Below, one piece after another: positions 1,882 through 49,200 of a stretch of DNA of 64,000 bases. Position 1 is the first letter of the stretch; each line of letters starts with the position of its first letter. The notes under the pieces are model-generated. The model was not told the DNA's origin and ran no database searches. It saw only the letters and a program-made list of their open reading frames with translations. Location: the NCBI RefSeq assembly GCF_964355755.1, contig NC_092672.1, forward strand, positions 2,046,001 to 2,110,000, read 5' to 3'. The stretch is from Antedon mediterranea. Lineage: Eukaryota; Echinodermata; Crinoidea; Comatulida; Antedonidae. A program made the translations under genes and the position numbers.

Positions 1882-4800
1882 TTATGTATACTCGATTAAG
1901 TATCTAAAGGCAGCCATTACACCGGCGTACGTCTCTTCACCTGTTGGAATAATCTCTTCTTCGGGTAGTACGAACCCGTATTTGCCTTTATCTGGTAACT
2001 CGATGACGTAACTAAATCGAGTACCAATAGAATATGCATAGTCTTCACTAGCCCCAGAAGCAGCATCTACGGTGGAAATAATTCATTGTTTTAAAAGATT
2101 ATAGTCAGAGGGGCAGTGTGTATATATAGCATTCCAGTGGACAGAGGGCCATGCCAGTGCTAATCGAAAAAAGGACTGCAGTGTATTATCAAGGCAATCT
2201 CTAACAACAGGAAAATGAGCTCAACTTGCCAAGATACGAACTTGTAACAGTCCTTTGATCTTATGTCTGGCTGCGACAAATACCAACAGTACTGTACTAT
2301 GTAAATGTTCTCTGTGGCGCGCGGTTCGTTGATCTTGTCGCAGCCACAGATAAACCCTTTGATCTCCGGAGCTCAGTATCCTGTTGTTAAATTGCCTTGT
2401 TTAATTAACTGTTAATAAAAATAAAACACCGTGAACACAGTTCCATAATTGTTCAATAATCGCAGTATACTTACATAACAATTCCACGGTGTTGCCACAC
2501 TCGTATTCCCGTCCACTCACCGCTTCAATTGCTGTTATTGTGGCGTCACCCAATTTCTTCTGTTAGAAACAAAGTTCGCCTTAGTTAGTTCATATCTAAC
2601 ACATAGACGTACTCAAAATATTAAACAATTTAATATTCATGCAGAGATTATTTTTTTCTAACGATAAGTGTTAATACTTACCACTTCCTCTTCGTTCGAT
2701 ATTGGAGCAAGATCACTTGCATATCCCCATGGATACAGCATCAACTGAGAGTAGCTATGGAAGTCAATGAACATCTCTAAGTTCTCCAATTTTTTAAGGA
2801 AATTCACAACTGATTCAATTTCAGGTTCTGATGTTGCGCTTGAGCCGCGGTACGTGTCAGAACACGGTTCTTCTGAAGCTCCTTCACCTGTGTGAAAGCA
2901 AAAGATACAAGACTTTAAGCTATGTCTACACTATCAAACTAGTTTGATGTGCCAAAATATGGTAATGATATGCCCAAATATGGCAGTGATATGACATTAT
3001 GTCCATATATATAAAGTTTGATAGTGTTGACAGAGTTTTATATATTGTTTAATGGTTTGCATGGCGAAATCAAATGTTTATATAAAGTTTTCAGTACACC
3101 AGGTATCTGTTTAGTTTCTCGACGTTTCGATCAATATACTTTGATCGCCCTTCTCACTCCTGAGGACGATCAAGGTATGTTGATCGAAACGTCGAGAAAC
3201 TAAACAGTTCTTCTCAGAACTAGACATGGTGTGTACCGGGCATTTTTTTGTCAAACTATTTGATAGTGTAGACAGAGCTTTAGATTTGCTTAGTATTTAT
3301 AGGCCTACCTCCCCATTCAAACGGCCAATTCCTGTTCGGATCAGTACCAACACATTCTGAGCCCTCGTTTGGAGATCTTGTCTTTCTCCACAAACGGTCC
3401 TACAAAAAACAAATGTATTGATTGATAATTTAACACATTAACAAGTACTTGTTTTCATCACATAGGCATAGTATAATGAAGTTTCTATTTATTACATTAT
3501 GATATGTGACTAAAGTTCTGTCCACACTATCAATTCAATTCAATTCAAATAAACATTTATTTCTTTCATTCATATTTGAGTAAAAAACATTATAATTTCT
3601 GATATTTTATAAATAAATAATTTTTTTTTTTAGAGATATAATACAGTAAATCATAATGTATAAAAAGATGATTCAGTTATATACAAAATGAAAGAGTCAA
3701 AAAAACTCAAGAAAGTATCGATCAATTGGAAACAAAAATCCAATTGAAACTTGTATATTGGGAAGCCATGTAAGAAGATTATATACTTATATATATAAAT
3801 GTAAACATATAACTACACATACACATAAAGATCAACAGACACACACACACACCAACAGTAAAGGAAGCAATTTAGAAAAAGTTTCTAAAGTTAAAAAAAT
3901 ATTACAAAATAGAGAAAAAAATTAGTTATAATTTGAAATAAGATATTCTTTAAGTTTAAAAGAGAACTATCAAACTTTATGTGACAACAAAATGTGATGT
4001 TCCCATATATGGACATGATTATGTCATATCACTACCATATCTGTGCATATCATTCCATTTGGCCACATTACATTTTTTTGTCAAACTAGTTTGATAGTGT
4101 AGGCCTAGACAGAGCTTTTAAATATTAACAAGGCCAACAGCCATTAAGTCGCGTGCTACAATGCATAGTGATACCGGACCGACAGACAGACCGACAGACA
4201 GACCGACAGACCGACCGACATAGTGAACTATACTGACCGAAATTACTGAACATGTTTAAAAATGTTGAAATGTTTAAAAACATTTATATTTTTTTAATTT
4301 ACACGTGCGTAGCCTGTCACTTTTGACGTGCTCGTATAACGTAATTTCGAGTTGAAAAGTAAGTCAAGAAAACATAAATCGAGCAAAAAGAGTGCGCAAC
4401 AACATTTAACGCGCAGTGCGCATGCGCACTCATGGCAATTTTGTAAACGCTTAAAATTGCCTGAAACGTACTCTTATTTCATCGAAAATAAATTTTGAAA
4501 ATTTTAAGCGCGCGTACGCATGCGTTACATGCGCTACGCACGTAATTGTATTGCCATATGATGATTTATGCCCTGAAATTTATGAGTACCAAATTTTATT
4601 TAATTGTGATTCATGGTTGTGAAGATATGATTAGAAACGTGATTTCGTTAAATCGTGCGTAGACCGCGTAATTTTTTATTGCGCACCGTGAAAACATAAC
4701 CACATTGATTCCTGGCCATAAGGAATATACTGTGAAAAATTAACCTAGCTAGATTAAACTGATATCAAGATAAGGTCAGAAAGCGATAAAACGCATAGTG

Positions 4801-7800
4801 ATACCGGACCGACAGACCGACAGACAGACAGACAGACCGACCAACCGACCGACATAGTGAACTATAGAGTCGCTTCCACGCGACTAAAAATGTGCAAGGT
4901 TATGATAGCTCATAATTAAACATATTCATAGGTCTAACGGAGTTTGCTATGCTTAGTATTTGTACATTATTTAGTAAGAAAAAAGGAAAGAAAGTCGCTA
5001 CGACTACAATGTATAAAAACATAACAATAGGCTTCAAATGAATATAAGTTACTTAGCAATAAAACAATAAAACAATGTTTACGCCATCAAGCAAGAATAT
5101 GCAAATGCTTACGTTATCCCACGTCCACCTGTATCCATCTGGATTAGTCACAAACAGTATGTAAATATCGTATTTTGTTAAAAAGTTTACTTCATCTTCT
5201 GAACCACTTGTGTATTTCTCCAAAAACTAAAAAAAAAAAGTTTATTTAATAATATGAAGACTTGTACGTAGATCACACATTTCTCCTAAAGCTCTGTCTA
5301 CACAATCAAACTTTATGTGACAAATAGGCCTAAATGTGACGTCATATCACTACCATATTTTAACACATTTTTTAAAACTAGTTTGATAGTGTAGATCACA
5401 GAGCTTTTATAAGCTCTACACTACCAATCTTTATGCGACAAAAAATGTGATGTACTCGTATATGGACACGAGGACGTCATAATATCACTACCATATTTTG
5501 GCACATCATCACACTTTTTTTTGTCAAACTAGTTTGATACTGATAGTGTAGACAGGGCTTGAGATATGGTCTTGAATTGAAAAAACCAAACTACTTACCT
5601 TATTCGTAATGTACATAACAGTGGCCGGTGAAATCCATTCTCTAGCATGAATACCGCCCTCAAACCAAATTTTTTTTTTATCTGAAGCGCCACCTGTAGA
5701 TATCTGTAACAAGATTTTTGTTTTTTTAAACTACTGTACTGTGTATGACCTTCTATGCTACTGTATGACCTTTATGATAATTGAGTTGTTTTTGTTTGTA
5801 CAGTATGTGTAGTATCATGGAGTAATTTACTCCATGGTAGTATTATCATTATTCTCCTTTCATAATGATTTGGTCTGACGATTTTAAAGATAAAGCTGTT
5901 TCTTTTGAACTTTTTTTCTCAATATTTCTTTATAATGTACGCAATAATAATAGTAATTTTGTTTTGTGCGTCACGGACGCAGATTCCGTGATACAGATTA
6001 GAAATAAACAGTAGCATACCATCATGCTCCGTTAGGCTCGAATGATTGTCTTTCTCTGGGCTGAGAGAATATTCTATAGCCATGCCACGTTTTGGCAATT
6101 GACGACCTTGTTGTGTAGTACTAGTAGGCATGAAAAATAACTTTTAAATCGGACTCAGTAGACGACAAAAGGATACGGTATAATTCCTGTTTCGTTCTAT
6201 TCATAAAGGGTTTGATTCGCGACGACGTTGTAGATATAATTCCGTCTCCTTTGCTCGATGCAAAGAAAGCTTAACTCATTCAAGTGGTCAGGGGGTTGAG
6301 GTAGCCTAAGCGAGTAGCCCAGCTCGGTTAATTCCTGCACGCTCAATTTCATTGGTGGTGATGGTCATTGTTAATGTTATACGTCTCACACTGGAACACT
6401 TTGAACACATCCTTGTATATTTCTCAAGTCGTGGCGCAACAACGGCTATGAGCGCTCACTGGCTAATCCCAGGGGCCCCAGTGCATGGAAAGCATCAATG
6501 CAACTAACCAGTGTTGGAGGACCTCTTATGAGTGCTAAACATGGGCCTTTGCCACCTGCTTTACGCCATTGTTCTCAAGATGTATCGAATAAAAAAACCA
6601 ATATCCATTATTGTTACCTTTAGAACTTTCATTGGTTGTTTTTCGTAAGACGTTCCAATTTCCAGTTCAGAAAGAATGTTTCCATAAGTTGATAATAAAC
6701 TATCTTGGAATAATTTTATCTAATAACAGATAATATAAAAATATCACTTTCACTTTGATGAGTATTACGTAGTTTCCACCGATTCTGAAACGAATCTTAA
6801 AGGCTGGCTTGGGGTTATTATAAAAATAATTATTATTATAATAGTTCTTATAAAATATAAACCTTTGCAATAACATTCATAATAACCCCACTTTTTCAAC
6901 ATTGGTGAAGTAGATCAACTAATCTATGCTTAGATTAATTAATATTAGTAAAAAGATAATTATTTTTGCACCATTTTTCATACAAAAAAAATCGAAACGC
7001 CAAAAAGCGGTGCCACAGGGAGATAGGCCTACCTCAGGTCGTCCCTGGTGCCAGGGCGTTAGGCCTACCTCAGGTCCTGTTGCCAGGGAGGTAGGCCTAA
7101 ATCAGATCCTCCCTGGTGCCAGGGAGTTAGGCCTACCTCAGGTCCTGGTGCCAGGGAGATAGGCCTACCTCAGGTCCTCCCTTGTGCTATAGGCATTATA
7201 ACGACGTTAACATTAATTAAATATTAATTATGTTTTTTTTCGTGAAAAAATATTTATTTACTACCGACGTTGCCCCTGTCTCTAGATTCCTGTGTGCACA
7301 AAGGTAGAATGTGAATGTATTAGTAGACATATACACACAATGCATGCCGGGAACCAGTACAAATGTAAAAGTACATACAAGCATAAACTTAAACTTCACC
7401 TAAATTATCTAATTATTAACTTGTTTTAATCTAAATTAAATTTGTGTGTGTATTTTGTGTTCTTTTTAATGGAAAACTGATTTAATCTTTTTTGGCTCAT
7501 CCAGCACAGCATTGCCTTTCCGAGATTGTCTTTTAAATATGTTTTTAACTGCAGTGACTTATTTAGCAGAATCGATATAAAAATGTAAAAACGGTTTGAG
7601 GTGATATGCAGTAGAAAAAATATAGATAAAGAATACCCTTAGCTGTCATAGAATAATAATAATACGATAATCTTTAGATAATAGGAAACTATCTCCATGC
7701 AAGGACAAACGATAACAAAAAGATAAATCCGTTTAAAGGGTATGGGTTATAACAAAGTAGGCCTACCGGCAGATTTCATTACAATCTATTATCCTGGTTA

Positions 7801-10505: not shown

Positions 10506-11460
10506 TATTAATTTACAATTATAGTAAAAAAGTATTTAGGCCTACGTTAATCTTCCATGCCCGCACCATCGTATTCACGATTTATGAAAATATACGGGTA
10601 GTGTTTGCATACAAATTGGCCATTTGACAATTAATTAAACAAGCATACATAAACGTAACTTGTATACAATCTATTAATGAAAATTAATCACTTGTAAAGG
10701 CATTTAAAAAGAAAACATAACCCACACCTTCTACCATAATGTATGCTATCTGTCCTATAGCTAATACGAGGTTCTTTAATTTAAAGATACTAACATCACT
10801 AGTTATCCGGTTATCAGTGCTGCATCTCCACATTCGTCAATATTTTACCGGTATTTAGGCAAATTTCGTCATACAGCATTACATGTACGTCACATGTGTT
10901 GCCTGTATCGGTTATTTAAGAGTTAGTTGGTCTATGTTTGAAGCTGTATTCGGGAATTTTCCAATACTGGAGAAATAGTACAGCATAGAGAATTGGATGT
11001 GCTAGTTTTGCGATGGATTATTCGAACACTGGCTTGTCATTGGTCAACTCGCTTGCGTTGCGCGTACGACGTCCTTTCGTTGCGTCTTATTAAGGATTGT
11101 ACGGTACTTATTTATCAGGGAGTTTCTAACCCATTTGTATTATAATTGTTTAAAATACATTATTATTATTATTATTCAATAGATCCCTGGGATCATCCCA
11201 TGTTATCAATGACCTCGATGTTGTTGTACCTGTATTAAGGGACAGGATTCTATATACAACACAATGCTTTAAGAGGGTACTGTAACCTAACAAAAGGATA
11301 CATGGCCGTACACACCCACAACCCCCCCCCCCCCAATTTCAAAAGGTCCACATTTTATAGGGTCTTAAAATAAAATAAAAAAGTACACAATATTATGAAA
11401 ATGGTCCAAAAGATATTAATCCGCACCCACCCAAATCAAATCTTGCGTACGGCCCTGGGA

Positions 11461-13330: not shown

Positions 13331-16300
13331 ATGACGTTATCAATTCTTCTCTTCACCATCATCACTTTCTTGGCCTGTAGCATAGCAACACATCGGCGTT
13401 ATGACGGGTAAGTATAGTACAATAGATTCACTAGCTATGCAATTTTCATATTCATTTCATCGTCTTAAAACATTGTAGTTAATAATAATAATGACAGACA
13501 TGGATGGAAAAATCAAATCTGTAACTTATCAAATCTGCAACTTATCAAATCTGCAACTTCTCAAATATGTAACTTATCAAATCTGCAACTTATCAAATCT
13601 ATAACAAATCAAATCTGTAACTTATCAAATTTGTAACTTATCAAATCTGTAACTTATCAAATCTGCAACTTATCAAATCTGTAACTTATCAAATCTATAA
13701 CAAATCAAATCTATAACAAATCAAATCTGTAACTTATCAAATTTGTAACTTATCAAATCTGTAACTTATCAAATCTGCAACTTATCAAATCTGTAACTTA
13801 TCAAATCTGCAACTTATCAAATCTGCAACTCATCAAATCTGCAACTCATCAAATCTGCAACTCATCAAATCTGCAACTCATCAAATCTGCAACTCATCAA
13901 ATCTGCAACTTATCAAATCTGCAACTTATCAAATCTGCAACTTATCAAATCTATAACAAATCAAATCTGTAACTTATCAAATTTGTAACTTATCAAATCT
14001 GTAACTTATCAAATCTGCAACTTATCAAATCTGCAACTTATCAAATCTGTAACTTATCAAATCTGCAACTTATCAAATCTGCAACTCATCAAAACTGCAA
14101 CTCATCAAATCTGCAACTCATCAAATCTGCAACTCATCAAATCTGCAACTTATCAAATCTGCAACTTATCAAATCTGCAACTTATCAAATCTGCAACTTA
14201 TCAAATCTGCAACTTATCAAATCTGCAACTTATCAAATCTGCAACTTATCAAATCTGCAACTTATCAAATCTGCAACTTATCAAATCTGCAACTTATCAA
14301 ATCTGCAACTTATCAAATCTGCAACTCATCAAATCTGCAACTTATCAAATCTGCAACATATCAAATCTGCAACTTATCAAATCTGCAACTTATCAAATCT
14401 GCAACTTATCAAATCTGCAACTTATCAAATCTGCAACTTATCAAATCTGCAACTTATCAAATCTGCAACTTATCAAATCTGCAACTTCGGTTTATTGACA
14501 ATTCAATTTTTCTTCCAGTAATATTAAATCACATTGACCCTAGTTGTATAATGGTCAAGAGAAATTCCCCTTAAGTTCGCCCCTTAATTTACCCCTTGCC
14601 CAGAGCATTTTTCATTTTGTGTACATGTTGTATTATTATCTGTTATTAAAATAACCATAAGCCAAAATCACATAACAAAATAAAAGTATATACCAAGTCG
14701 AACTCATATTGTACTTTTATGATTTAAATAAGACAGAATATTCTGGGTTTTTTTTCAAATGATTTTGAAAGAAAAAAAGAAACGCTTCTACTAATAATTT
14801 TCTTTTGTAGATACAAACTTGTTCGCACGATTCCAGATATGGACGATGATTTGGATTCACTTAGAATACTCAAAGATATGTATGAAGGAGAGGAGGTAAA
14901 AAAAGGATTTTGTATTAATAGACATCTAAATATACATTTAATTATTTTTGTCTTTTATGTGGAAACAATTCCTAGGGGTTGAATCAATCCTTAATAAGAG
15001 GGGAGGGATGTTCCCTTAATAGAGATATCCCCTGAATGTGTCTCAAAGAATGGTTACCGATCGATGATACAATATATTAAGACATACAAACATTATAAAA
15101 TTGTTTGTTCCAGGTTGATTTCTGGAATGGCATCAAACGTCTAGGCATGCCAGTTGATATAGCAGTCTCACCGCAAATGGAAGCGACACTCATAGCACTT
15201 CTAGAAGACTTTGGTTTACGAAGTACCATAGTTATTACTGACATCCAAGCACTTATTGATGACCAAATGCGTCCTTCACTATCAACCAGAGTTAAACGAG
15301 ATGCAGACAGTACAAACGAATTTGATTACAACGTCTATCATCCTCTTGGTGAGGTAAAGTAGAGTCGTTTTGTTTATTTATTCACTATCAGTATATCAAT
15401 ACAATAGCTTGTCTCACTTTGCTTTTCATACTCTTTATTAGCAACAATGCTCTATCTTCTATATAGCTAGTTTCCATTCATCATTGTTCACGATGAACAA
15501 TTCTTCTTTTATAGTTAGTTTCAATCTCGCCCACTGTCAACACTGATATACATATTATAGCTTTCACACCAGTCATACCAAATTACCATATAATCCCATT
15601 TTCCTGGACTTTCTGCATTTTCTCCTCCTGGGGACGATCGAAATATATTGATCGAAACGTGGAGAAACTCAACATTTTGTTTCAGAACTATTTATACGTT
15701 TTTATTGCAAATTTTATATCAACAATACCAGATAATACAACATGTTTCATGTAAAGAAAAAATACACCGATCGCTGTGACTCAAATGAGCAGACACGCCT
15801 TCTGTATTAAATATAATATAGGTCTACTTTTGACTCAGATGAGCAGCCACACTTTCTGTATTAAATATAATATGGTCTACTTTTGACTCAGATGAGCAGA
15901 CACACCTTCTGTATTAAATATAATATAGGTCTACTTTTGACTCAGATGGCGGCAGACACACCTTCTGTATTAAATATAATATAGGTCTACTTTTGACTCA
16001 GATGAGCAGACACACTTTCTGTATTAAATATAATATAGGTCTACTTTTGACTCAGATGAGCAGACACACCTTCTGTATTAAATATAATATAGGTCTACTT
16101 TTGACTCAGATGAGCAGTCACACTTTCTGTATTAAATATAATATAGGTCTACCTTTGACTCATATGAGCAGACACACCTTCTGTATTAGATATAATATAG
16201 GTCTACTTTTGACTCAGATGAGCAGTCACACTTTCTGTATTAAATATAATCATTAAACAATATAAGTATACAAAGGCCTACTTTCGTACCTGCAGATCTA

Positions 16301-23017: not shown

Positions 23018-23046
23018 CAGCAGGGAGTTACAAAGTTATACCTCCC
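23018..23046. repeat. Micro-hairpin CAGGGAG...CTCCCTG
   Basis: CAGGGAGTTA faces TACCTCCCTG across a short loop; one of the GGAG/CTCC hairpins described in the findings. Confidence 0.5.
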
Positions 23047-24168: not shown

Positions 24169-24188
24169 CTACTGTAGGCCTACAGTAG
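24169..24188. repeat. 20-bp perfect palindrome centred on TAGGCCTA
   Basis: CTACTGTAGGCCTACAGTAG is its own reverse complement. Without GGCCTA it would be CTACTGTACAGTAG, still a palindrome. Confidence 0.8.
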
Positions 24189-30100: not shown

Positions 30101-33100
30101 TGTATATTTTACAATTATTATTACTATTTTTTCAAATTACTTCGATTTATTATTTATTTAATTCAAATTATATTCCTTGATCGCACTCACTCACCTCAAA
30201 AGAAAAGGCCCGCAAAAAGGTTTCAACATAATCGCTTTCCTTATAATGAATTGAACTGGTTAATGCCAGAATCTTATGAAATATGAAATGCAGAATGAAT
30301 TTTTACCTAAAGTAAAAGTAAAATAAAATGAATTGTTAGTTTCACGTCCCGTCACGATTTTATTAGTTTACTATTTTATTGTATTTTACTAATACGTCAA
30401 AATCGTGATCCCTTTCTTCTCATTTTGCTCATGGCAGAGGTTGCAACTCTTTGGTTAATTGAAAATACAATATAGATCCCGGATGTGAAACGAAATTCCG
30501 TATCCGGTACTCTGATTTATCAGGGAGTAGTCCTGGATTAATGCAATAAATGCAAATTTAAATTAATTACTATCTACTTTGCCACTCTTTGATAAAGGTA
30601 CCTGTATATATGTTGCATTTGTTATGTTATAATCTTATTTTCTGTTATATTTATATTTACCCTAGTTTTTGTTTGATGATAAAAGTCTGACATGATTTTC
30701 CGAAAAAACTATAATACATCTGAAAGAGTGAAATTAGAGTGTAAATTCACTCTTTCCTGGTTCAACAACAACAACAACAACACATTAATTTATAATCTTT
30801 ATGGAAAACACGATATGTTCTTCCAAGTTAGCTCAGTGTTGTCTTTTAAATTGTTTTTTTTTTCAACTTTTCGGCGTCGTTTTCATTTCTGTTTTGTTTA
30901 TTTTTTTTCGCATTCCGAATATTCCGAAATTGGTGGTTGTTGTTTTTTGTTTGTTATTTGGATGCGCTTTTATAAAAAAAAGAATGGCGCTTTCGTAAAT
31001 GTGAAATTACCACTACAACTTGTTGTTATTAGTATTATTAGGCCTAATCAAAGCAAAACGAGATGATGAAAAATGGCAAAACGCTTTCTACTTTCAGGAG
31101 GTTTATGTGGTTAAAGTTATAAGCTGGAAATTTATCAAACTTTACTTACTTTCACCTTACTTTAAAACAAATTATAGGAGTGTCCAGTGTATTAGGTACC
31201 CCTTTTAGTGGCTCCAATGGACCATATAACATTGTATTTGATGACTCCTATATAAACAGGATAACTTAATGACTAGTGCTGATTTTGCAATTTTTGTCTA
31301 AAAACTAAATAGGGCCAGTGGAGTGGAAGCTTTGTACTGTATTTGAAAACAATATTTTTAGTCTAAGTAATAATGAAAACTTAATGACGTCTTTGGCTAC
31401 TTGTTATTGATTGTTTGACGGTCAGCGCGTAAGCCCACTTCAGCGCGTAAGCCCGGGTCACAGCTAACAAAGTACAACATTATTTGCATTTCATTGAACA
31501 AGAATTAATTAAGAACAAAGGTATAACAAATATTATTTTTTTATTCACAACAGGCGATATTGTGGAATGTGGTGTATTTAAGGGTACCGGATTAATGCAA
31601 TTCCTGAAGATGCGACAAATGCATATGCCAGGCTCTATGAAGAAGGTTTGTTACTTCGTCATTCAAACACATACAATCATCATATCATAGTATAAAGTTT
31701 CTTGTCCCCTTATCAGCAGATAAGTTTCCGTTTGATATTTTAATTTTAAAAAATGGTTTTCATGTAGGCCTACATTTTGTATATTCGCAATCAATCTGAA
31801 TTCGATTCGCGCGAATGTCTTATCGCTAATGGAAAACAAGCTGTTTTATATAAAGTAAAATTAATAATAAAACTAGGTGTAATAACTAAAAGTTACCACA
31901 TAACAACAATACACCAAAAACCTTGAATATAATTCCCCATGCATAAACTATTTGGAGCACACAAAAGAGAAAATAACTATTTGCCGATGAAGACACACAC
32001 CCACAATCCTAATTCCACTTGACAATCAGTCGACGGTTCGTGGTTGGTTGCGGTTGAGTAAAGACGCACAAATCCTAATTCCACTTGACAATCAGTCGAC
32101 GGTTCGTGGTTGGTTGCGGTTGAGTAAAGACTCACAAATCCGAATTACGACTTTGCTTTTGTTTTAAATTCTTGTTCCCATTAGCAGCACAAGGACGTAA
32201 GGCAAAGATTTAACCAATCACGGTCGAGGGATTATAAAGAGTGTTTGCATTGATCCAAGCTAAAGGCCGTGATGTTGTGAAGCCAATTCGTTCTTTTGCT
32301 GATCTTGAAAACATTTAACTCTTATTTTACACATACATGGAACTGTTTAGATCCATTTGATTTTTTCAAGAACATATTTTGTTTGCATAAACTCTTAATT
32401 TTTGAAATTATTATTAATTTATTTACCTTACATTTAAAGTGTTTCCTCAACTTGTTTATTCATAATTTCTTTTTCTGAATTTCCTAATTCATTATTGAAA
32501 TATTGTTCTCGTTTATACTTTTTCAACATTAATAAGACATTTTTTATATATATATATATATTTTTTTTTTATTTTTTTTTTCAAGAAAAAAAAATGTGTA
32601 GGCACTTTTTATCTCTATGGAGACTGATCTCTGGTATTCCACTTGGTACTTTTATTTTTCTCATTAACCTGTCCCCAGTTTATCTGGTTTTGTTTTTGTG
32701 TTGGATTTTTACTTGTTTATATGTCATTTTCTTCCCAAATGAACCCCTGTACCGAAACATTTCCTAACCAAGATCGATTAAATAATTTAATTTTCAACCC
32801 ATACGCAGACTATGATAAACATGTTCATGACTTTGACCCTGATACCAATTTCCTCTCTTCCTCTATCCAGCTCAATTGTAAGTACTATCAACCTGACCAA
32901 CTAACCAACTTAATTGGAGAGCTCAGTAACGTGAAACACTTTTCTTCCTTGCATATTAATTCTAGAAGTTTACTTCATAACATTGATTCTTTCAAATTAT
33001 TTTTAACCAATGTAAATTATGATTTCGATATAATTGCAGTCTCGGAAACCTGGTTGAAAGATGATAATCCATTAACCAATATCTCCAGTTATTCTTTCAT

Positions 33101-36100
33101 TTCAAAAAACAGACTTGGGCGGGCTGGTGGAGGTGTAGGGCTGTATGTTCGAAATAACAATGTGTTCAAAGAGAGAACTGATCTTTTCCTAGACCCCTCC
33201 CTATGCGACTCCCTTTTTATTGAACTTGAACTTGAATCCAATCAAAACATTATTGTTGGTGTAATCTATAGGGCACCATCTCTTGATACGAATGCTTTTA
33301 TTGACGCTTTTGATCTCCTGTTAAATAATCTAGCAAAAACCAACAAAAAAATTTACTTATTAGGTGATTTTAACATTGACCTACTTAAACATCAGTCCGA
33401 TAATCAATCCAACAATTTTGTTAACTCTGTCTTTAGTAATTTCCTTTTACCCTTAATCAATAGACCAACTCGTATTACCCGAACGTCAGCAACATTAATT
33501 GACAACATATTATCTAATCAAATTGAATCATCAAGTCTATCTGGACTTTTCTATAGTGACATTAGTGATCATTTGCCCATTTTTAACATTACACCCTTAT
33601 CAAATATACCAAACCGTCCCAAAAACTATGTAAGCCCTAATCATACCTACAGAAAATTTAACGAAACAAATATTTCAAACATAAACAACGATTTGTCTAA
33701 CATGAATTGGACTGGTGTTTATGGTACGGATGATCCTAATTTATTTATTTATTTTTTTTATTTATTACGGTATATATAAAATTACAAAAACAATAGCACA
33801 TAGCTAATAAAGTTTGTATTACAATAAAAAATATTGAAATGAAATCTATAAAAACTACAATAATAAATTTGGAATATACAATTACAAAATTTCACAATAT
33901 TGCTTTACTTTCATTTGAAACTGAATTCAAACGACTGTATGATAAACATTTTCCAATTCAAGAGCAGTCTGCAGGGAAAAAAAAAATAAAGACCTGGATG
34001 ACGGATGAACTCTTAAATTCAATAAAGCATAAACAAAAACTGTATTCCAAATCCCTCCGCTATCCGAATGACAAAAACATAAATGAATATAAGCAATTCC
34101 GTAAGGAATGTTGCCCCTCTTATTTTAATAATTTTTACTGTTAATTTTTATTTTCTATGAAAGACAAGAGAAATAAATGTTACTTTGATTGATTGATTGA
34201 TTGATAAAGCTGTCTCTTGTCTTTGGTCAAATTGCTTGCGTTGCGTCTACGTCATTGCGTTGCGTCTACGTTGCGTTTTTCCGGAATACATCACATTTAT
34301 ATCATATGTATCGTAGATCAATACATAAAATCTCACATGATACAGACCAAATATTCATTGTAGCATGTGGCGATACTAGCACTAAGAATCGAGTACGTAT
34401 TTTGGAGTAACCTGTCGTAAAAACCTTTCGTATTTTACGACAGACTTAATTACAAAATACGAAAGCTAATTTTAGAAAATCGACAATAGACGGTTGTTAC
34501 AAAATACGTTTATTGCACAAAATACGACAGTTTGAATAATCAATCGCTCACTCGCGTTGCGTCTACTGCCGCCTTGCGTTGCGTCTACGACTGCCTTGCG
34601 TTGCGTCTACGACTGCCTTGCGTTGCGTCTGCGACTGCCTTGCGTTGCGTCTACGACTGCCTTGCGTTGCGTCTATGACTGCCTTGCGTTGCGTCTACGA
34701 CTGCCTTGGGTGGCGTCTACGGCTGCCTTGCGTTGCGTCTACGACTGCCTTGCGTTGCGTCTACGACTGCCTTGGGTGGCGTCTACGGCTGCCTTGCGTT
34801 GCGTCTACGACTGCCTTGCGTGGCGTCTACGGCTGCCTTGCGTTGCCTATCGGGAACCAAGCAAGTACAGGCTAGGTCAACTCAGACAGCGTCGTACTGT
34901 ACCACGAATCGTCTCATCGGGAGAAAATTAGACATGTTTCTCGCGACGAGCTAACGCCCGGCGCTATCTCAAGACGACTCGTCTCGTCGGGATTCAACGC
35001 AGCAGACAGCACCGACGAGTCAAGACGTTTCGTCGGGCCTCGTCGTACGATGCTGTTTTTGACCATAAATCAACTATAGTTTAACTATACTCCATTCATA
35101 TTTCCACAGGTAATTGGATTTGATTTATTTACTTCACAACCTAAATTAGAAGGAAACGATGATGTACAAATGAGCAAACTATTTACGAGTAGCAACTTCA
35201 AAGGGATACAACCCGAAGATTTACAAAATCAAGCCAAGATGATTTGCGGCGACAACTCGCTGTTTGAACTTGTAGCTGGTGACGTATGTACGTCTTGTTC
35301 ACAGGTATAGTACCATCGTCTGGCAATTCATTCGTCACGCTCTGTCTACACTATCAAACTAGTTTGACAAAAAACAATGATGAAATCATGTCACTACCAT
35401 ATTTGGGCATAAACACACTTTTTTTGTCAAATTAATTTGATAGTGTAGACAGAGCTTTACACAAAGTTCCTGTGTCATTCAGGCTTAGCTATTTAGCCGG
35501 GTACGTTGGTTTCATAGGGTAAAGAGTTAACTTTGGTGGGTCAGAACCGACTTACCCTGGTAAATAAATAAGCCTGAATATGCCTAAAGGGCAATTTAAG
35601 GCCAATTTACGGTAACGGTAAGCACAAAAAAAAACGCGTAGCTTACCCTATCCCACGTATAACCTGTATCTATCTTGAGCGGAAACCACCCGTCTGCTTC
35701 GCGTAGTGTGTGAATGGTCATAATGATAGATTCTGTATTTTGTATTACCGTTTCTTTACTACCGTTCTTTGTAAATTGGCCTTAAACATAATAATTACCG
35801 GTACGACACATTCAGGGCATAATACGGAGGTCTCCATGCCGTGCGTAAGGAGCGTATGTTTAATATAAAATTACGTTAATTTATGTTGTAAATTATAAAT
35901 AAATTAAATTTTTTTTTCACAGTATGTAGAAAACAATCCGGGATTTAGAATATCATTCCTACACATGGATTTGGACGTGGGACCGCCAACACTAGAAGCA
36001 TTAAAAGCATTGTGGCCACGAATTGTAAGGGGCGGAATTGTCGTATTCGATGAATATGCTATTTCAAGGTAGGTTGTTGAGGCTGATTTTATGGGGCGCC

Positions 36101-40400: not shown

Positions 40401-40436
40401 ACAAATATACATCGAAAGTCAAAGCAAATTGTTAAA

Positions 40437-40770
40437 TTTTTAACTTTTTAACTAATTGTATTACTTTTAAATATGAGCAAATAACGTGTTTGTATAAATA
40501 AACATGAACTTAACCCCCGAAATCGCGACCCCTTTCATTTAAACAAGGTTGGTAAACAGAGAGGCTGAAATTTGGAACGTTGGGGAATGGGATTCGTTCT
40601 TTCCCCTCCGCATCGCAAGGAAATACACAATTTAACGTAAGCCAAGGATCATACTAGCTGTAAGGTCAAATCACGGACCTATAAATGTATAGGTCCATGG
40701 TCAAATCAAGCTTGGTTCTTACATGGACGTAACGCAAGTGATTTGACCAATCATAAGCGATGGATAATCC
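40437..40770. repeat. Block X: methyltransferase 3' flank, duplicated at 48854-49200
   Basis: Starts 37 bp after the stop codon with TTTTTAACTTTTTAACTAAT. It is almost identical to 48854-49200 over about 340 bp, including AAATCGCGACCCCTTTCATT and TAAATGTATAGGTCCATGGT. The copy has GTAGGCCTATAAATAAAC where this one has GTATAAATAAAC. Confidence 0.85.
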
Positions 40771-40828
40771 AAACTGCTTGCGATTGGCCAACTTGCGTTG
40801 GGTCTCTAGTGGGAACCACGCTAGCTTT
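40707..40828. mobile_element. MITE family A copy
   Basis: CAAGCTTGGTTCTTACATGG at the left, TCTCTAGTGGGAACCACGCT at the right, central AATCATAAGCGATGGATAAT. Its left half was carried along in the block X duplication (49138-49200). Confidence 0.75.
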
Positions 40829-41013
40829 ATACCTGTGTTGCGCGTACGACGTCCTTGCGTCGTGTCATACTCCACACAACGAGTGTGAGAACATTGGTAT
40901 TGTATTATTTTATTTTTTATTTTATTCAGTCAAAACCAACAGCGATAAATACCGCCACTAACAGGTTTGAAACATAAAACAATACATCAAAAACGGTTAA
41001 CAATAAAATACAG

Positions 41014-41055
<42 letters not shown>

Positions 41056-41295
41056 CATAGATCGGCATGCCATAAACCATTTCAATTTAAAATTTATATT
41101 AGTGCAACAATGTACTATTCACACACAAGCATTCTGTGTTTGTAGAATAAACGATACCTGAGCAATAATTAGATTGGTGGTGGGAAGGTGGTTGTATAAA
41201 TGTGAGAAAATCAATACCGATTAAAATATTTATAATTATTTTGAAATTAATATTCGTATGCAAATCAGTGGTGTAGATGGGTTGATGTCCGTTAA

Positions 41296-41487
41296 AGATA
41301 TATCAGACCATGATATGATATATAAAGACCATGATATGATATATAAAGACCATGATATGATATATAAAGACCATGATATGATATATAAAGACCATGATAT
41401 GATATATAAAGACCATGATATGATATATAAAGACCATGATATGATATATAAAGACCATGGAGGTATAGTATATAATACCTCTATGAC
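41296..41487. repeat. 21-bp array running into a micro-hairpin
   Basis: Seven to eight units of CATGATATGATATATAAAGAC at 41308-41455; being a multiple of three it gives an open DHDMIYK frame that is not a gene. The last unit continues into CATGGAGGTAT...ATACCTCTATG (41456-41487), a hairpin of the GGAG/CTCC set, and the array starts in a CATGATATGATATA motif resembling one arm. Confidence 0.85.
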
Positions 41488-41504
41488 AAAGACCATGAGC
41501 AAAA

Positions 41505-41813
41505 TTGGTTTAATTTTGTTGTTGAAAATGTTATTTATGGTCACACGACAATAGATTCACTTTGACTAAAAATTGGATGGAAACGACAAATATTTACGTG
41601 TAAAAAACTGTACTTTAACGCTTAGTAAAATGTATTGATTTTGGGATGAGTTTAACTGTTTATTTTGTCTGTTTATATCTGAAAACATAATTTGTTTTTT
41701 TATGTGTTACGTTACGTTAACGTTATTAAAACTACAAGAAAGACCAATATAAAGTGTGAGTTTGCTTAATGTTCATGGTATTCGGGAGACAATACACATC
41801 TTTATTTAATCAT
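41505..41813. mobile_element. MITE family E copy
   Basis: TTTATGGTCACACGACAATA, ACTTTGACTAAAAATTGGAT and the right end GGGAGACAATACACATCTTT identify the family; the left end is not clear. Confidence 0.6.
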
Positions 41814-42954
41814 ATAACAAAATACATTGCAGCATAACACGCTCTGAATTGTAGTATTGTACTATTATAGACAAATTACACAAACTAGATGGCACGCTCG
41901 CTTTTTTGGGACACTAAACAAAAACGGAAGTGTCCCCCTAATTGGGGTATTCAGAAATAGAGACAACAAAACCAATACTGGATTCCATAAAGGACAATTA
42001 ATTTATGTGGATTAAAGAAATTAGGGAGAAATGGAAATGTATGTACGGGAATTGGGCGACACGTGGTGGTGGTGATGGAACCGCAGTAATAAAGTTGATT
42101 GTATTTATATATTATAAGAACCAAACTAAATAAATAGACCTAGACATTCTGCGAAATGAAAATCGGAAATGCAAGCTCCTATAAAGTGTAAAATTAAACT
42201 GTAGTCTACCTAAATATTTAGGGCAAATCATCGGTTGTGGTGTTGAAATTCCTGTAAACATTAATTGTGTGAACCAAACTGGGTCGAATTTCTGTCATGA
42301 GTACTGATTTGTTGGCCTGTGATTTATGACGCCTAAGGGATCTATCTAGACTTATTTTTTAGAATAATGTACGTACCTGTCAGATACAATTGTCTTGTGT
42401 CGTATAATAAATAAGTACTGTAATAGTTACTGAAGTTACTATTACAATCTCGTCAATGAAAACACGAAAATGTATATGCACTTACTTATGAAAACGTATA
42501 CAGTATTATACTCAGTTATTGAAACAGTAGGTTTAAAAAAGTTTCGTTTGTCTGTAAAATGATGTAATCAAGCTGTTTACATGAGTCTTAATTTATAAGC
42601 ACATCAATAATAAAATAGTTTATCTATCCTGTAATTGGCGAGATTATGGTCGCTGTTGAATGAAATAAAGCCAATCGGTATCATATTTGTACAGAAACGT
42701 TTTCGCGGCCGAAGGGTGTAACCTAAATTCGTTGTATTATCGTCAAGAACTAACTGTAACTAAACTTACATAGAAAGTAGGGTATCATAAATTTGGCCTT
42801 AGCACTCGGGGGAGTGGCTAAGATGAAGTCCGTGGGACTACTAAATATAAATTGTAATGAACCTCGAGGGACATAAATAGGAATATTTCATGTTTCATTA
42901 TCAATGTATAATAAATGGAAACTGTTTACCGATTCAAATAATAGAAATTGGTTT

Positions 42955-43330
42955 TTAACATTTTCCGAACCTATTGCAAGTTTATTCTCAAAGGGCCCAT
43001 ATATTTACCTACCGTATGTGTTAAACCAAGGGCTCATAAATTTACCTACAGTACTTGTGTTAAACCAAACTCTGGCAGACTGAGAGATTGGGATGTTCCA
43101 TTCATCGCAAATCAATACATTTGTATAATCGTATATTAAATCTATCAAAATAGTATTTTTTAAAGAAAATCGGCCTGTCTTCAACATTATGATGGTGTAC
43201 TCTAGCAATCTATCAAAATAGTATTTTTTAAAGAAAATCGGCCTGTCTTCAACATTATGATGGTGTACTCTAGCTGTTCAACCGGTTTTCAGCTATTAAA
43301 AACAATTATCGTAGGAGGAGATAGGAAAAT
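42955..43330. repeat. Block C copy 1, duplicated at 43804-44108
   Basis: CTATTGCAAGTTTATTCTCA to AAATGCGAAGCCTCCTCGC, nearly identical to the second copy. This copy also has an internal tandem duplication of about 68 bp (ATCTATCAAAATAGTATTTT twice, 43139 and 43207). Confidence 0.9.
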
Positions 43331-43803
43331 GCGAAGCCTCCTCGCTATGTAACATTAGGGTTGAGGGATGGGAAAGCGGATAGGTACAAAGAGGAACAAT
43401 TTTTAAATATATTCTTTATCCACTGAGTAACGAAATATTTTGTTCATGTTTTATAGGCCTATAAATAATATACCTCTAAATACAGTAGGCCTAAAACATT
43501 TGCGATTTAATACTTTGTTAAAACTGTCACTGTCATAATCGATTGAAATATTAAAGTACATGTATCGATACACCACTATGACGTTTATATTTTTGGTAAT
43601 TATTAATTAATACAAACGTTGAGAAGGAACTGTCAGTATAAAGTTTATTTGTATATCTAACAGTAGAGCCTATCCACAGTCTCAGTAATAACGTTTATTT
43701 GTATATATTTTTATATTACATCTAACAGTACGAACATTCACAGTAAGAAATGTTCGATTCAAATGAAAAATAGTTAATAGGTATTTACAGTATTGTCAAA
43801 GTA

Positions 43804-44108
43804 TTGCAAGTTTATTCTCAAAGGGCCCATATATTTACCTACCGTATGTGTTCAAGGGCTCATAAATTTACCTACAGTACTTGTGTTAAACCAAACTCTG
43901 GCAGACTGAGAGATTGGGATGTTCCATTCATCGCAAATCAATACATTTGTATAATCGTATATTAAATCTATCAAAATAGTATTTTTTAAAGAAAATCGGC
44001 CTGTCTTCAACATTATGATGGTGTACTCTAGCTGTTCAACCGGTTTTCAGCTATTAAAAACAATTATCGTAGGAGGAGATAGAAAAATGCGAAGCCTCCT
44101 CGCATTTT
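43804..44108. repeat. Block C copy 2
   Basis: Lacks the 68-bp internal duplication and a TTAAACCAAG-type word near its start; otherwise very close to 42955-43330, so the copying is recent. Confidence 0.9.
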
Positions 44109-44379
44109 TTTGGCGGGTATTTTTCAAGATGGACATCCATTAGACAGTGTATACCACGATCGGAAAACACCCCTATTTGGGGCAAATCGTTTAACCTAAA
44201 TTCGTTTTAATCGTCAATAACTAATTATTTAACTCAATTTAATTAGCAAACAGGGTTACATCAGGCGGTTAAAATCAGTACCGAAAGTACGAACCAACTT
44301 TACATACCATCGAGTGAAAATTCTAGAAGTAAGGCGCGATTTACCGAATTTTGCCCTTACGTAAATTTATATATAGATG

Positions 44380-44545
44380 AAAACAAAAGACAGACACAAT
44401 AAAGAACAATACAAAGAGAGAAATAGCAAACGCTACCATACTATTGTACTATTATAGACAAATTAAACAAATGAAAACAAAAGACAGACACAATAAAAAA
44501 CAATACAAAGAGAGAAATAGCACTGACGCTACCATACAATCATAA
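44380..44545. repeat. Tandem pair of a 90-bp unit
   Basis: GAAAACAAAAGACAGACACA to CGCTACCATAC appears twice. The linker TATTGTACTATTATAGACAA also occurs at about 41853. Confidence 0.85.
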
Positions 44546-44679
44546 GCAGTTTCTTTCTCAAAGATGTAATCATAGTGCGACCAATAACATTTCATATAGG
44601 CTAGGCCTACCAGCAGCATAAATGTGAAATAATTCTAAAATCTAAAAGGATACGGTTGAAATGTTAATAGACTAAGCAT

Positions 44680-45860
44680 GGAGGAAATTTTCTAAGTATT
44701 ATTACCTAATACATAAACGGTTTCTGAATAGAAATGGTATGTTGAATAAAAAATAGAAAAATGTACGTATTGTTTCGTTTTAAATAACATCTTTTCATGC
44801 GTGGCGTCAGACATCACATCTCCTGGGGAGAAAATATACATGGTTTTGTATTATGACAATAGTTAGCCGAATCATGAACTCATGATCAAACTACTATAAA
44901 AGTTTACTTTAGCCAATGTTATTGTAAAATAAACGATTACCAATGCGTTCAGGTAATAAAATCAATACGCACACATCATTATTCACTAAATTTCCCAAGG
45001 CGCTTGTAGAAAAACTAATCTGTAAACGTAAAAACAACAAATCTAGACAAAACCCACCAAACTGCATTCAGTTTACCAGCAATTTAATGTGCATAGACCG
45101 GCTGCTACATAACTCGCAGTTTTTCTCAGTTATGTGAGCATGTAACTAGATAATTAACAAGAAATATTTCTTACAAAAAACGCTGCTCGCTTATTGAAAA
45201 ATATTTTTTATTTCAAATTTGTTTTTGAATGTGTCATTTTATTGTCACATAATAGTTATTTTACCTGAAAAATGTAATTTAAAGCAACAAATACTTAAAT
45301 TGTCTGTCAGAAAATGGTTTTTCGGTTTCTTTTCTCTTTTTATATGTGAATAATATTGTTTTTTGTTACAGAAGTGAATACTCAATTTCTGTCACTTTAG
45401 TTAATTTTATTGCTAAGGTCAAGTCTGGGGGTCACTTCATCACCCTAGATATTTCAAGTGTGAAGTATCCTATTACATACACAAACTTTAATGAACTGTT
45501 TTGATAATAATTCAATGTATATCTGACAGTGAATTACAGTCAAAAGTCAGTATTATAGTCAAATAGGACTCATAAATATCAGAAATGCTTTGGGATTTGT
45601 AATTTTAGCATGACATGTCCTAATAGACGCTTTTCCCAGACGTTTTTTTGGGTCTAGCAGCTGAAATCTATACATTATAGTGGAGTTTCCATTTTCGCAT
45701 AACTGTCGTCCTTAGATACTATAACTGCTGCTTGCTTTAGCTTCTGATTGAATAGTCCTAATGGGAAGTAGCGGGCTAGAGATGTCAAAAAGCATCTAAC
45801 AGCTGATAAGTCTTTATAGTACACAAAATGTTGAAAAGTTGATTTGCTAGCACGAATGTA
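44680..45860. repeat. Block Y, partly duplicated at 49200-49795
   Basis: Shares ATGGTATGTTGAATA, ATTGTTTCGTTTTAAATAA, CATCTTTTCATGCGTGGCG, ACGATTACCAATGCGTTCAG, CAAGGCGCTTGTAGAAAAAC, TTTACCAGCAATTTAAT and GTTGATTTGCTAGCACGAAT in order with 49200-49795. A 600-bp stretch (45150-45780, including MITE E-like sequence) is present only here. Confidence 0.8.
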
Positions 45861-46030
45861 AATTGGTCACTCTTATTCCAAAGACGAGGTTTATGGTTCT
45901 GCTGCTGCAACAGAAAAACAAATTCACCAGGAGCGTGCTGATCCGGGTTCCACAAGAGAACACCAGCTTAAGCCTTCGTGGGCATGTACCACCACATAAG
46001 CAGCAGCTCACCAAGGACATTGGAAGTGAT

Positions 46031-46133
46031 CAGCAGTGGACGAGTTTCTAAAAGATATGCCAGATCAAGTTCACAGACTATTCCACGGACAAATTAAATA
46101 TGAGCAAATAACGTGTTCGTGTAAACGACACGA
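46031..46133 (+). pseudogene. Remnant of the methyltransferase last exon
   Basis: AGTTTCTAAAAGATATGCC then AGATCAAGT and CAGACTATTCCA match the last exon at about 40315-40362 (protein DEFLKDMPDQVLQTIPW), followed directly by AAATATGAGCAAATAACGTG of the 3' flank. The coding end and about 110 bp are deleted, and the frame closes early. It is non-functional. Confidence 0.75.
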
Positions 46134-46510
46134 ATTTCGAACCACAGTCCCATGAGAAACTTCTTGTTACTTTATCTTGAGATTATTTAGAGGGTTGGGT
46201 TTAGTTAGATTTGGGAAGTAGTTCGACTACTTTTCACAAGATGTTCCCAACTTATGTACGAAAACAAAATCGCGTCCAAAAGATCTACTGTGTAGAGTTT
46301 AGTAAGTGTGGTGGGATCGATTCAGATTTGAAACCATGGTCTACCACTCTACCAGTCCATAATATCTACAAGATTGGTCGGATACGCTACTCAATCTAGA
46401 AACATTAAAGGGCATTTGTTTCAAGTTGTACAGCATTAAAAGAAACAGATACTGAAAACAAATTACTGATAAAAAACATGATTGTATACAATATTGCTCC
46501 TCTATTTATT

Positions 46511-46937
46511 TTCTGCGGAAGCCCTTAGTGCACAATTTCTTAAGAACAGAGCATTATACAGTAAGTATGGTTATGAAGCCATTATATAAATATTGCATTA
46601 AGAAATTACCATTTATTATTTTCTGCGGAAGCCCTTAGGGCACAATTTCTTAAGAACAGAGCATTATACAGTAAGTATGGTTATGAAGCCATTATATAAA
46701 TATTGCATTAAGAAATTACCATTTATTATTTTCTGCGGAAGCCCTTAGGGCACAATTTCTTAAGAACAGAGCATTATACAGTAAGTTTGGTTATGAAGCC
46801 ATTATATAAATATTGCATTATGAAATTAACATTTATTATTTTCTTCGGAAGCCCTTAGAGCACAATTTCTTAAGAACAGAGCATTATACGGTAAGTATGG
46901 TATGAAGTCATTATATACATATTGCATTAAGAAATAT
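46511..46937. repeat. Four 110-bp tandem units
   Basis: Unit starts at 46511, 46621, 46731 and 46841 (TTCTGCGGAAGCCCTTAGGG ...). Blocks at 52462, 52572, 52683 and about 52794 are the equivalent array in the other K copy, so the four-unit state predates the large duplication or both were later equalised. Confidence 0.9.
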
Positions 46938-47439
46938 TAATTTATTGAAAGCAAGCTAAACACAGTTTGACTTTTCGCACCAATTGAAATATTGCAGCTA
47001 AAATGTATTATTAAATTACTTAATTTGGTGCAGTAACATTTAAAGATATATTGTCCCCTTAAAAAAAAAAAATTCAAATTTGTTTTTTTAATATACCATT
47101 TTAATGTCACGTAATAGTTATTCACTTTGACCAAAAACTAGAACGGAAAAAAACAAACAATTATTTATCTGAATAAAATGTAATTTAAAGCAAAAAATAC
47201 TTAAACGTTCTGCCAGACAATGGTTTTGGGTTAAAATTAAATGTTTCTTTTGACTTTTTATAAGTGAAAAAATTATAAAATTTTTTTTACAGAAGTGAAT
47301 AACTTTATTAAAACTGCAAATGGCCTATATAAAGTTTGATTTTATTAATGTTCATTTTTCATGTTCTTAAACTAAAAAAAAAACATGTACTTAACAGAAA
47401 TATCGTTTAACAAAATATTTATTATATAAGGAATTGGAT

Positions 47440-47641
47440 TTAGTCCGTTTTGTTTTCTGTAAGTGGATATATCTGAGTGGCTGTGACTCCAACACTGCTT
47501 CTTCTGGAGCTCATACTGTTTAGAACCTTCCATCGTCTCGTCACTGGATTGTACCGTTCGACACCGTTTAGGCTACTGCTGCCGTTGTTGCCACCAATCA
47601 CGTACAAATGACCTTTTAACGCCACAGTGTCGTGTGTGCTT
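47440..47641 (-). CDS. KLHL17: Duplicate terminal exon of KLHL17 (exon 9')
   Basis: A 202-bp exon with a proper acceptor (TTATTTTAG), the same phase as exon 9, an open frame and a stop. It encodes STHDTVALKGHLYVIGGNNG and onwards to TENKTD, the sixth Kelch blade. It differs from exon 9 at three residues (Ala to Thr, Asp to Asn in GGNDG, Thr to Asn in KVLT). An AATAAA lies about 20 bases past the stop on the minus strand. It could be spliced to exon 8 (at 54748) in place of exon 9, or be a non-expressed copy. Keeping the frame and splice sites favours some use or a young age. Confidence 0.6.
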
Positions 47642-47756
47642 CTAAAATAATATCAACATTTATACATAATAAATAATTACAAAGGATCAACATTATTCCC
47701 ACTCTTTAATAACACTGAACTCATGTAATGTATATCAACTCGATTAAACCTTTTTT

Positions 47757-47990
47757 TTTTCAATTCTAGTTAACATTTATTTCTTTCAAAACAAAACAAC
47801 AATAAAAAAGAACATTTCTTTTCATTTACAAATATTTTATGAAATTATAACAGACTAGAAAAGAAAGAAGTGTCTTTAAAAAAAAATGGTAATATATTTT
47901 TTTGAGTTTTGAAAGTGGCAAGGTCCCAAAAAGTAAAATCAAAAGGAAAAACCAATAGAAACTTGTGTTGGATAAGAAGAGATAATAATA
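47757..47990 (-). mobile_element. LINE 3' tail inside block K'
   Basis: Same family and orientation as 3533-3965 (GAAAGAAATAAATGTTAACT-type end on the minus strand, CAATAGAAACTTGTGTTGG core). It is absent from the proximal K copy, so it inserted after the duplication or was lost there. Confidence 0.5.
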
Positions 47991-48528
47991 CTCTTTCATA
48001 CATATGAAAACATGAAGCAGCGGTGGAAGCTTTATGATTATGATGCTCGTTTTGTCAGTGAGGTCAGAGGTCATTTATTTTAATCACCTATTACCTGTAT
48101 AAGCTATGCTATGCTGAACATTGTAACAATTATGGACCAAAGATTATGTTTTCTCTTTTGTGAGTACTGTTCACTTATTATTATTACCATTTCCATTATA
48201 AACATCAATATACATATCATGTACACCACCAAAATTACGAGCAAGAATCAATATCATAAGGCATTTAATGAAAATGCAGACTGTTATGCGACATAAAATC
48301 TATTCTCATATCAGAACTATAATCAGCATATACATTTCATATCGCATAATATTATTATTTAAATTTACATTACTTTTTTTTGTATGTATACTATAACATA
48401 TGGTATGGTATCGGTAAATGTTTCTGTTTTGGAAGCAATTATAATAAATTAGTTTTAAATTCAGTAAATACAAATTAGGTTGATAATTGATTGATAAGTA
48501 ATGTAATGAAAACCATGAATAAATACTA

Positions 48529-48810
48529 CAGTCAACTCTCCCAATATCAGAATTTTGGAAAACCAGAAACTCTCCCAATACCAGACTCTCTGAAACTGGA
48601 AACTTTCCCATACCAGACTCTCTGGAAACTGAAAACTTTCCCAATACCAGACTCTCTGAAAACTGGAAACTCTCCCAATACCAGACTTTTCTTGAAGACC
48701 AAAAGGTACCAAATCCTTTTTTACCATTGAAAACACATTCTGAATACCAGACTTTCTAGAAAACCAGACATATTTGGCCAGCCCAAAGGTGTCCGGTATT
48801 CAAAGAGTAC
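48529..48810. mobile_element. Pogo/Tigger-like MITE with internal repeats
   Basis: Starts CAGTCAACTCTCCCAATA after a TA; contains about four units of CCAGACTCTCTGAAAACTGG (36-bp spacing); ends at the degraded GGTGTCCGGTATTCAAAGAG. Copies at 54553-54740 and 59859-60004. Confidence 0.65.
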
Positions 48811-48814
48811 CAAC

Positions 48815-48849
48815 CTTCTTGTTGTCATTGGCGTCACAGGCTCCCACAT
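48815..48849 (-). pseudogene. 35-bp fragment of KLHL17 exon 8 at a duplication junction
   Basis: CTTCTTGTTGTCATTGGCGT then CACAGGCTCCCACAT equals the donor end of exon 8 (54748-54782). It stops abruptly and is followed within five bases by methyltransferase 3' flank (block X'), fixing the breakpoint of the tandem duplication. Confidence 0.8.
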
Positions 48850-48853
48850 GTCT

Positions 48854-49200
48854 TGTTTTTAACTTTTTAACTAATTGTATTACTTTTAAATATGAGCAAA
48901 TAACGTGTTTGTAGGCCTATAAATAAACACGAACTTAAACCCCGAAATCGCGACCCCTTTCATTTAAACAAGGTAGGTGTACAGAGAGGCTGAAATTTGG
49001 AACGTTGGGGGAATGGGATTCGTTCTTCCCCCAGGCCTCCGCATCGCAAGGAAATACACAATTTAACGTAAGCCAAGGATCATACTAGCTGTAAGGTCAA
49101 ATCACGGACCTATAAATGTATAGGTCCATGGTCAAATCAAGCTTGGTTCTTACATGGTAACGCAAGTGATTTGACCAATCACAAGCGATGGATAATCCAA
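48854..49200. repeat. Block X': second copy of the methyltransferase 3' flank
   Basis: Matches 40437-40770 almost base for base; carries a TAGGCCTA at 48912 that the other copy lacks. Followed directly by block Y' (49200-49795), the counterpart of 44680-45860. Confidence 0.85.

Follow-up and report, generated by a model that had tools for sequence, protein, structure and literature searches.

The DNA examined here is a 64-kb window (positions 2,046,001 to 2,110,000 of contig NC_092672.1) of the genome of the crinoid Antedon mediterranea. It contains copies of a miniature inverted-repeat transposable element (MITE) family, termed MITE D, a duplicated block (copies X and X'), minisatellites and a 1.09-kb non-autonomous element, together with 37 exact copies of the palindromic octamer TAGGCCTA, in which the letters GGCC are enclosed by two TA dinucleotides. 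A first-pass annotation of the window had counted about three dozen octamers by hand against roughly one expected, and this surplus is borne out, as dinucleotide shuffles (n = 100) contain 0.45 copies on average and at most 3, and TAGGCCTA is the most frequent of all palindromic 8-mers in the window. Since five of the 37 copies share one minisatellite, they represent ~33 independent places, most of which have varied, unrelated flanks; only one of the 25 listed open frames, at most a candidate gene (30683-31066), spans an octamer (at 31039). Genome-wide (354,431,138 bases in 18 contigs) we counted 128,596 copies, ~44-fold more than the ~2,900 predicted by a trinucleotide model that was fitted to 207,560 unmasked bases from a sample of the genome, so the genomic frequency is far above expectation as well. 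Two palindromes of the same composition, ATGGCCAT and ATCCGGAT, occur 4,686 and 1,587 times, respectively, making TAGGCCTA 27-fold commoner than the former. The window is not exceptional, because ten arbitrary 10-kb stretches also total 37 octamers, although unevenly (15, 2, 4, 4, 3, 1, 0, 0, 3 and 5); its octamer density is typical, and the phenomenon is a property of the genome.

Comparisons between repeat copies reveal how the octamer arises (Table 1). Blocks X and X' align over 352 columns at 93.5% identity and differ at the octamer by an exact 6-bp gap (GGCCTA after TA), with GTTTGTATAAATAAAC at 40488 in one block and GTTTGTAGGCCTATAAATAAAC at 48907 in the other. The right end of MITE D is equally exact: five plus-strand copies in the window carry the unfilled form GTGTAGACAGAGC, the copy at 4097 carries the filled form GTGTAGGCCTAGACAGAGC, and further filled copies occur elsewhere in the genome. 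A third pair, in the interior of MITE D, had been described in the same terms, but its two copies, at 5319 and 5437, differ by 7 bp, the former being the longer, and the latter has no TA at the site, so that one further change is needed. The statement that the gain is always GGCCTA after TA thus applies to block X and to the MITE D end, and fails for the MITE D interior. Both the overabundance of TAGGCCTA and its origin by a 6-bp gain at TA are confirmed. A broader survey of insertions and deletions between repeats (≥75% identity, ≥60 columns) yielded 663 insertion events, in which the three- and four-letter strings placed between TAs (hereafter tokens) include CAG/CTG four times, GGCC three times, CCG twice and GCC/GGC once. 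The GGCC events comprise two pairs described above and a change of one unit in an existing AGGCCT run between the copies at loci L030 and L032, which are ~98% identical and also differ by a TACAG gain; the comparison of L003 with L015 supplied one TA/TAGGCTA pair.

Table 1. Positions in the 64-kb window of octamer gains, token clusters and candidate element ends.
Feature	Position	Strand	Remark
MITE D end, filled with TAGGCCTA (TA in other copies)	4097..4115	+	octamer 4100-4107
Octamer within MITE D copy	5325..5332	.	7 bp, not 6, relative to the copy at 5437
Minisatellite with five octamers	7024..7167	.	copies by tandem duplication, not separate gains
CTG, GGCC and CAG tokens with common TAs	24170..24187	.	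TACTGTAGGCCTACAGTA
Block X, TA state of the duplicated block	40488..40503	.	GTTTGTATAAATAAAC; TA 40493-40494
CAG and GGCC tokens with a common TA	43481..43493	.	TACAGTAGGCCTA
TA-CAG end matching L030-L032	48527..48540	+	TACAGTCAACTCTC
Block X', filled state	48907..48928	.	GTTTGTAGGCCTATAAATAAAC; octamer 48912-48919
Octamer inherited in the 50356-51399 element	50607..50614	.	same site in central copies of L001-L012
TA-CAG end matching L030-L032	54729..54742	-	minus-strand occurrence
Dense cluster of five octamers among GGC, GCC, GC and GAGGC between TAs	63776..63974	.	

The range of tokens gained at a single TA was determined with genome queries built from exact MITE D flanks, which miss mutated copies (the hyphen in each site marks the insertion point). 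At the site GTGTA-GACAG, with 3-9 bp inserted, the 100 of 142 matches that were listed include GGCC 5 times, CAG 14 times, CTG 10 times, and GGTC, GGC and GCC once each, the rest being single-unit duplications and mixed strings. With 1-30 bp inserted, TAGGCCTA appears 3 times among 100 of 296 matches listed, all of them within the five already counted. The filled copies at this site are spread over contigs 1, 2, 3 and 7. At GATA-GTGTAG the 100 of 150 matches listed contain CAG 5, CTG 4 and CGG 3 times and no GGCC, and at CTA-GTTTG all 91 matches contain CAG 26 times, CTG 21 times, CGG once and again no GGCC. TACAGTA and TACTGTA are therefore the commonest TA-flanked gains at these sites, with TACGGTA also present; the CAG/CTG token is general at MITE D TAs, and GGCC was seen at one site of three. 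The base preceding the octamer is unlike that preceding all TAs (G, 0.34 vs 0.18; T, 0.16 vs 0.34), and this G-rich, T-poor setting may partly account for the restriction of GGCC to one site. PIF/Harbinger elements have TWA as their target. A target of this type was set aside for the octamer, its preceding base being G-rich and T-poor, and the target types of related groups (PMC4482050) likewise do not fit. MITE D itself (2920-3040 and 35334-35460 in the window) has copies that often end in CAGAGCTTTA or CAGAGCTTAA before unrelated DNA, endings that hint at TWA as the target and at PIF/Harbinger ancestry of the family.

GGCC is accompanied by other tokens that are also in excess. In the 207,560 bases used for the model, TACAGTA/TACTGTA occur 178 times vs 45 expected and TACCGTA/TACGGTA 39 times vs 16. 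In a separate count TAGGCTA and TAGCCTA, which have the form of variable minor products, together number 31 vs 13.8 expected. Sleeping Beauty excision has TACAGTA and TACTGTA as its consensus footprints, yet the words alone prove nothing, because the mouse genome holds >300,000 of them without transposition (PMC4378557 for both points). In the present genome, the letters of the CAG/CTG and CCG/CGG tokens are the ends of resident TA-flanked elements. Locus L029 (426-3185) contains a 2,760-bp TA-bounded element whose ends start with CAGTAGAACC and match at 20/20 letters; its 550-aa frame has DDE_1 and HTH_Tnp_Tc5 domains, and the element is apparently intact and pogo/Tigger-like. In L030-L032 the pogo/Tigger-like copies have a common left end, TA-CAGTCAACTCTCCC, and their right end lies beyond the loci; L031 and L032 match each other at 99.8%. 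CAG ends are also found on a Tc1-like DDE_3 element in L036 (TA-CAGTACTGAC, 18/20 letters) and a 456-bp TA-flanked element in L015 (20/20). CCG ends bound an apparently intact pogo/Tigger-like element in L041 (2356-6465; CCGTAAACTG, 18/20; 527-aa DDE_1 frame) and a 743-bp TA-flanked element in L013 (20/20). The end scan gave no convincing ends in four stretches of one set of nine (L037, L039, L042 and L044) or in L038, L040 and L043. Profile searches of the genome returned 47 DDE_1 and 8 DDE_3 matches, some with intact frames, so that transposases able to cut at TA are present, although none is linked to GG ends. For mariner (PF01359), neither this genome nor the control genomes gave a match. 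On the evidence of these ends, the CAG and CCG elements are plausible sources of the corresponding tokens and may have made them. Because two other TA tokens match resident element ends, we consider that TA footprints are present in this genome and that TAGGCCTA shares their form.

The explanation that we favour is that TAGGCCTA is itself an excision footprint, left by a putative TA-specific cut-and-paste element ending in GG or GGC. It is preferred because the octamer has the TA-letters-TA form, because two sibling tokens match elements, and because GGC and GCC occur as minor products. We infer the existence, now or in the past, of the element, as well as the stagger and the repair route. An element with ends 5'-GG(C)...(G)CC-3' would insert with TA target duplication, converting TA to TA-element-TA; its excision would involve cuts with a short stagger inside the element ends, and joining by the host would leave GG and CC flanked by the two TAs. 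With a 2-nt stagger, TA-GG-CC-TA would form directly. Alternatively, GGC 3-nt 3' overhangs on both sides could anneal through their self-complementary GC pairs and be filled in to TAGGCCTA, a route that could give TAGGCTA and TAGCCTA as minor products.

We nevertheless put the footprint explanation at even odds: no source element came to light in the DNA scanned, the octamer was not seen at two of the three MITE D sites, and its copies seem young. A scan for TA-flanked inverted ends covered ~305 kb of the 354 Mb (315,198 bases minus the satellite-rich L017) and found no element with GG...CC ends. Seven GG...CC pairs exceeded the threshold: two inverted copies of the 1.09-kb family make up one of them, and the other six resemble chance matches or arise from the octamer itself. 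No GG-ended element was found around the DDE_3 and DDE_1 transposases scanned either, where CAG- and CCG-ended elements appeared instead. At MITE D sites reading GTGTAGG, no common foreign end was seen among 100 of 414 matches listed. For GGCC no site was found both occupied and empty: empty and filled versions are seen at block X/X' and MITE D, with no occupied one among the matches listed. The arbitrary stretches contain no more than one or two elements with CAG or CCG ends apiece, so by a rough estimate the failure to find any with GG ends is weak evidence that none exists. The first-pass annotation had proposed a TA-targeting element with GG...CC ends; the 6-bp gain at TA and the sibling tokens that match elements agree with that proposal, while the element itself did not turn up. 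Overhang pairing predicts TACCGGTA from CCG-ended elements. This word is found 6,792 times vs ~2,440 expected (~2.8-fold), with regular arrays accounting for some of the places listed; the count backs overhang pairing weakly, and pairing was set aside as a general rule.

The age of the octamers was estimated from their decay in a sample composed of the window, the ten arbitrary stretches and nine transposase-centred stretches, with tandem repeats masked. This sample contains 88 octamers vs 1.7 expected, corresponding to an exact excess of 86.3 and a one-mismatch excess of 37.2; these fall to 59.6 and 25.9 when dense clusters are excluded. The ratio of one-mismatch to exact excess is thus 0.43, where steady neutral gain and loss predicts 1.14, and the CAG/CTG words have an exact excess of 133 and a one-mismatch excess of 207. 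Calibration words agreed with the model (17,699 seen vs 17,536 expected), but it overestimates the two-mismatch class (467 two-mismatch relatives of TAGGCCTA vs 553.6 expected), and the one-mismatch excess may accordingly be understated. At face value, modeling would place the start of the GGCC gains within ~12.5% divergence, or a burst at ~5%. Under these models the octamers look young with no source in view, and with so few decayed copies a recent source ought to be visible. Of all the points against an ancient, extinct source, the low one-mismatch excess weighs most, and it is also compatible with maintenance. Outside clusters, the one-mismatch words in excess are TAGACCTA/TAGGTCTA, changed at an inner letter (17 vs 4.0 expected), and GAGGCCTA/TAGGCCTC, changed at one outer letter (12 vs 1.7), and the other ten pairs total 38 vs ~35. 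The TAGACCTA/TAGGTCTA surplus may represent either decayed octamers or a separate GACC/GGTC token.

The main rival to an excision footprint is a separate, sequence-specific micro-insertion, in which a nuclease or repair activity at TA adds or templates GGCCTA and no transposon takes part; we judge it unlikely, though less so than the remaining alternatives. It would explain why the product is so uniform over 128,596 copies, why ~305 kb of scanned DNA holds no GG...CC element, and why the marks show signs of youth. Strong clustering also fits it, as 32 of 99 neighbour distances on contig 1 are <100 bp vs 4.2 expected. We know of no such micro-insertion process at TA. The same TA sites, however, gain CAG/CTG and CGG, which match resident elements, and the GGC/GCC by-products resemble variable end joining. 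That a recent and perhaps continuing one-step mutation of TA to TAGGCCTA operates without a mobile element therefore seems doubtful to us; if it does, sample counts and simple decay models would imply about one gain for every 190-300 substitutions.

It is improbable that the octamer is a maintained palindrome, created and held by methylation-linked repair or by selection as in the cyanobacterial HIP1. HIP1 is the best-known 8-bp palindrome of this kind, very frequent and explained by methylation and repair (PMC4390886). TAGGCCTA is likewise an 8-bp palindrome that is very frequent, with its ~44-fold excess and few one-mismatch relatives, but its visible origin is insertion at TA inside repeat copies, not point changes. 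Its flanks, moreover, are mostly varied and unrelated, with no sign of a conserved setting, and its deviants show no general bias to the outer letters, the excess outside dense clusters being shared between the inner-letter pair and a single outer-letter pair, with none in the other outer-letter words.

Equally small is the probability that most octamers are secondary copies made by (TAGGCC)n slippage, in minisatellites, or in families carrying an old octamer. Such copying does occur: five window octamers lie in one minisatellite, the central copies in L001-L012 hold one common octamer, 10 of the 99 neighbouring pairs on contig 1 overlap as TAGGCCTAGGCCTA, and ~98%-identical copies differ by one AGGCCT unit. 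Two tokens share one TA at 12 places in 164 kb, and dense patches of TAs split by GGCC, GGC, GCC, GC and GAGGC are seen in L013 (4820-5340) and at 63740-64000 of the window. Most window octamers nevertheless have unrelated flanks, 88 octamers remain in the sample after tandem masking (vs 1.7 expected), 61 of these lie outside dense clusters (vs 1.4 expected), and a single MITE D site has gained the octamer on contigs 1, 2, 3 and 7. Local multiplication is real but leaves the isolated octamers unexplained, and slippage is dismissed for MITE D and block X, where the gains start from plain TA and not beside TAGGCC units.

Among known systems, each end of C. elegans Tc1 contributes two letters to the footprint TACATGTA, as is proposed here for TA-GG-CC-TA, and these stay enclosed by the TAs; the Tc1 word itself is not raised in this genome (11 vs 10.9 expected). 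The octamer resembles Sleeping Beauty/Tc1-type footprints in having few letters between two TAs, and the CAG/CTG words are present here too, but it differs from them in that GGCC has four letters and is palindromic, and no GG...CC element was seen in the DNA scanned. Published footprints measure 2-4 bp for Tc1/mariner elements and 0-3 bp for ZB (PMC7913693), and 0-4 bp for Passer (PMC9976928), and Stowaway MITEs leave short end fragments inside TA and also show a later insertion next to an earlier footprint (PMC1925063), an arrangement resembling the shared-TA tokens described above. By these accounts TA footprints of up to ~four letters are already established. As described there, ZB, Passer and Stowaway footprints concern known elements at few sites, whereas a single product is found here 128,596 times and belongs to no known element. 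The literature matches listed for TAGGCCTA and the decamer GTAGGCCTAC include no report of a genome-wide mark, which is weak evidence for its being unreported, given that most subscription journals lie outside the coverage. We do not place TAGGCCTA in a named footprint family, because its link to element ends gave no positive result.

If the octamers are footprints, more than 100,000 past excisions of DNA transposons are recorded readably in one genome, and counts of TA tokens (CAG, CCG, GGCC) could date families that have no surviving copies. If they are not, an unknown insertion process acts at TA and has produced >100,000 uniform palindromes in a 354-Mb genome. On either reading, short TA tokens are insertions of a non-random kind, and their numbers can be determined for any genome.

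Several other repeats were noted. The 1.09-kb non-autonomous family (50356-51399 in the window, and L001-L012) has 91-bp inverted ends starting with GGGTGTCACGAAAGC and 10-bp target duplications in seven of nine single-copy loci with both ends readable, and appears Mutator-like by form. It is young, with >35 near-full copies listed at ~92-95% identity to the window copy; its use for dating gains was dropped, since the central L001-L012 copies share one octamer and show no new gains. Positions 13368-14500, 34485-34912, 41284-41480 and 54907-56600 of the window are minisatellite arrays whose units measure 16, 22, 21 and 46 bp, respectively, and a further block is duplicated at 47421 and 53330 with 95% identity.

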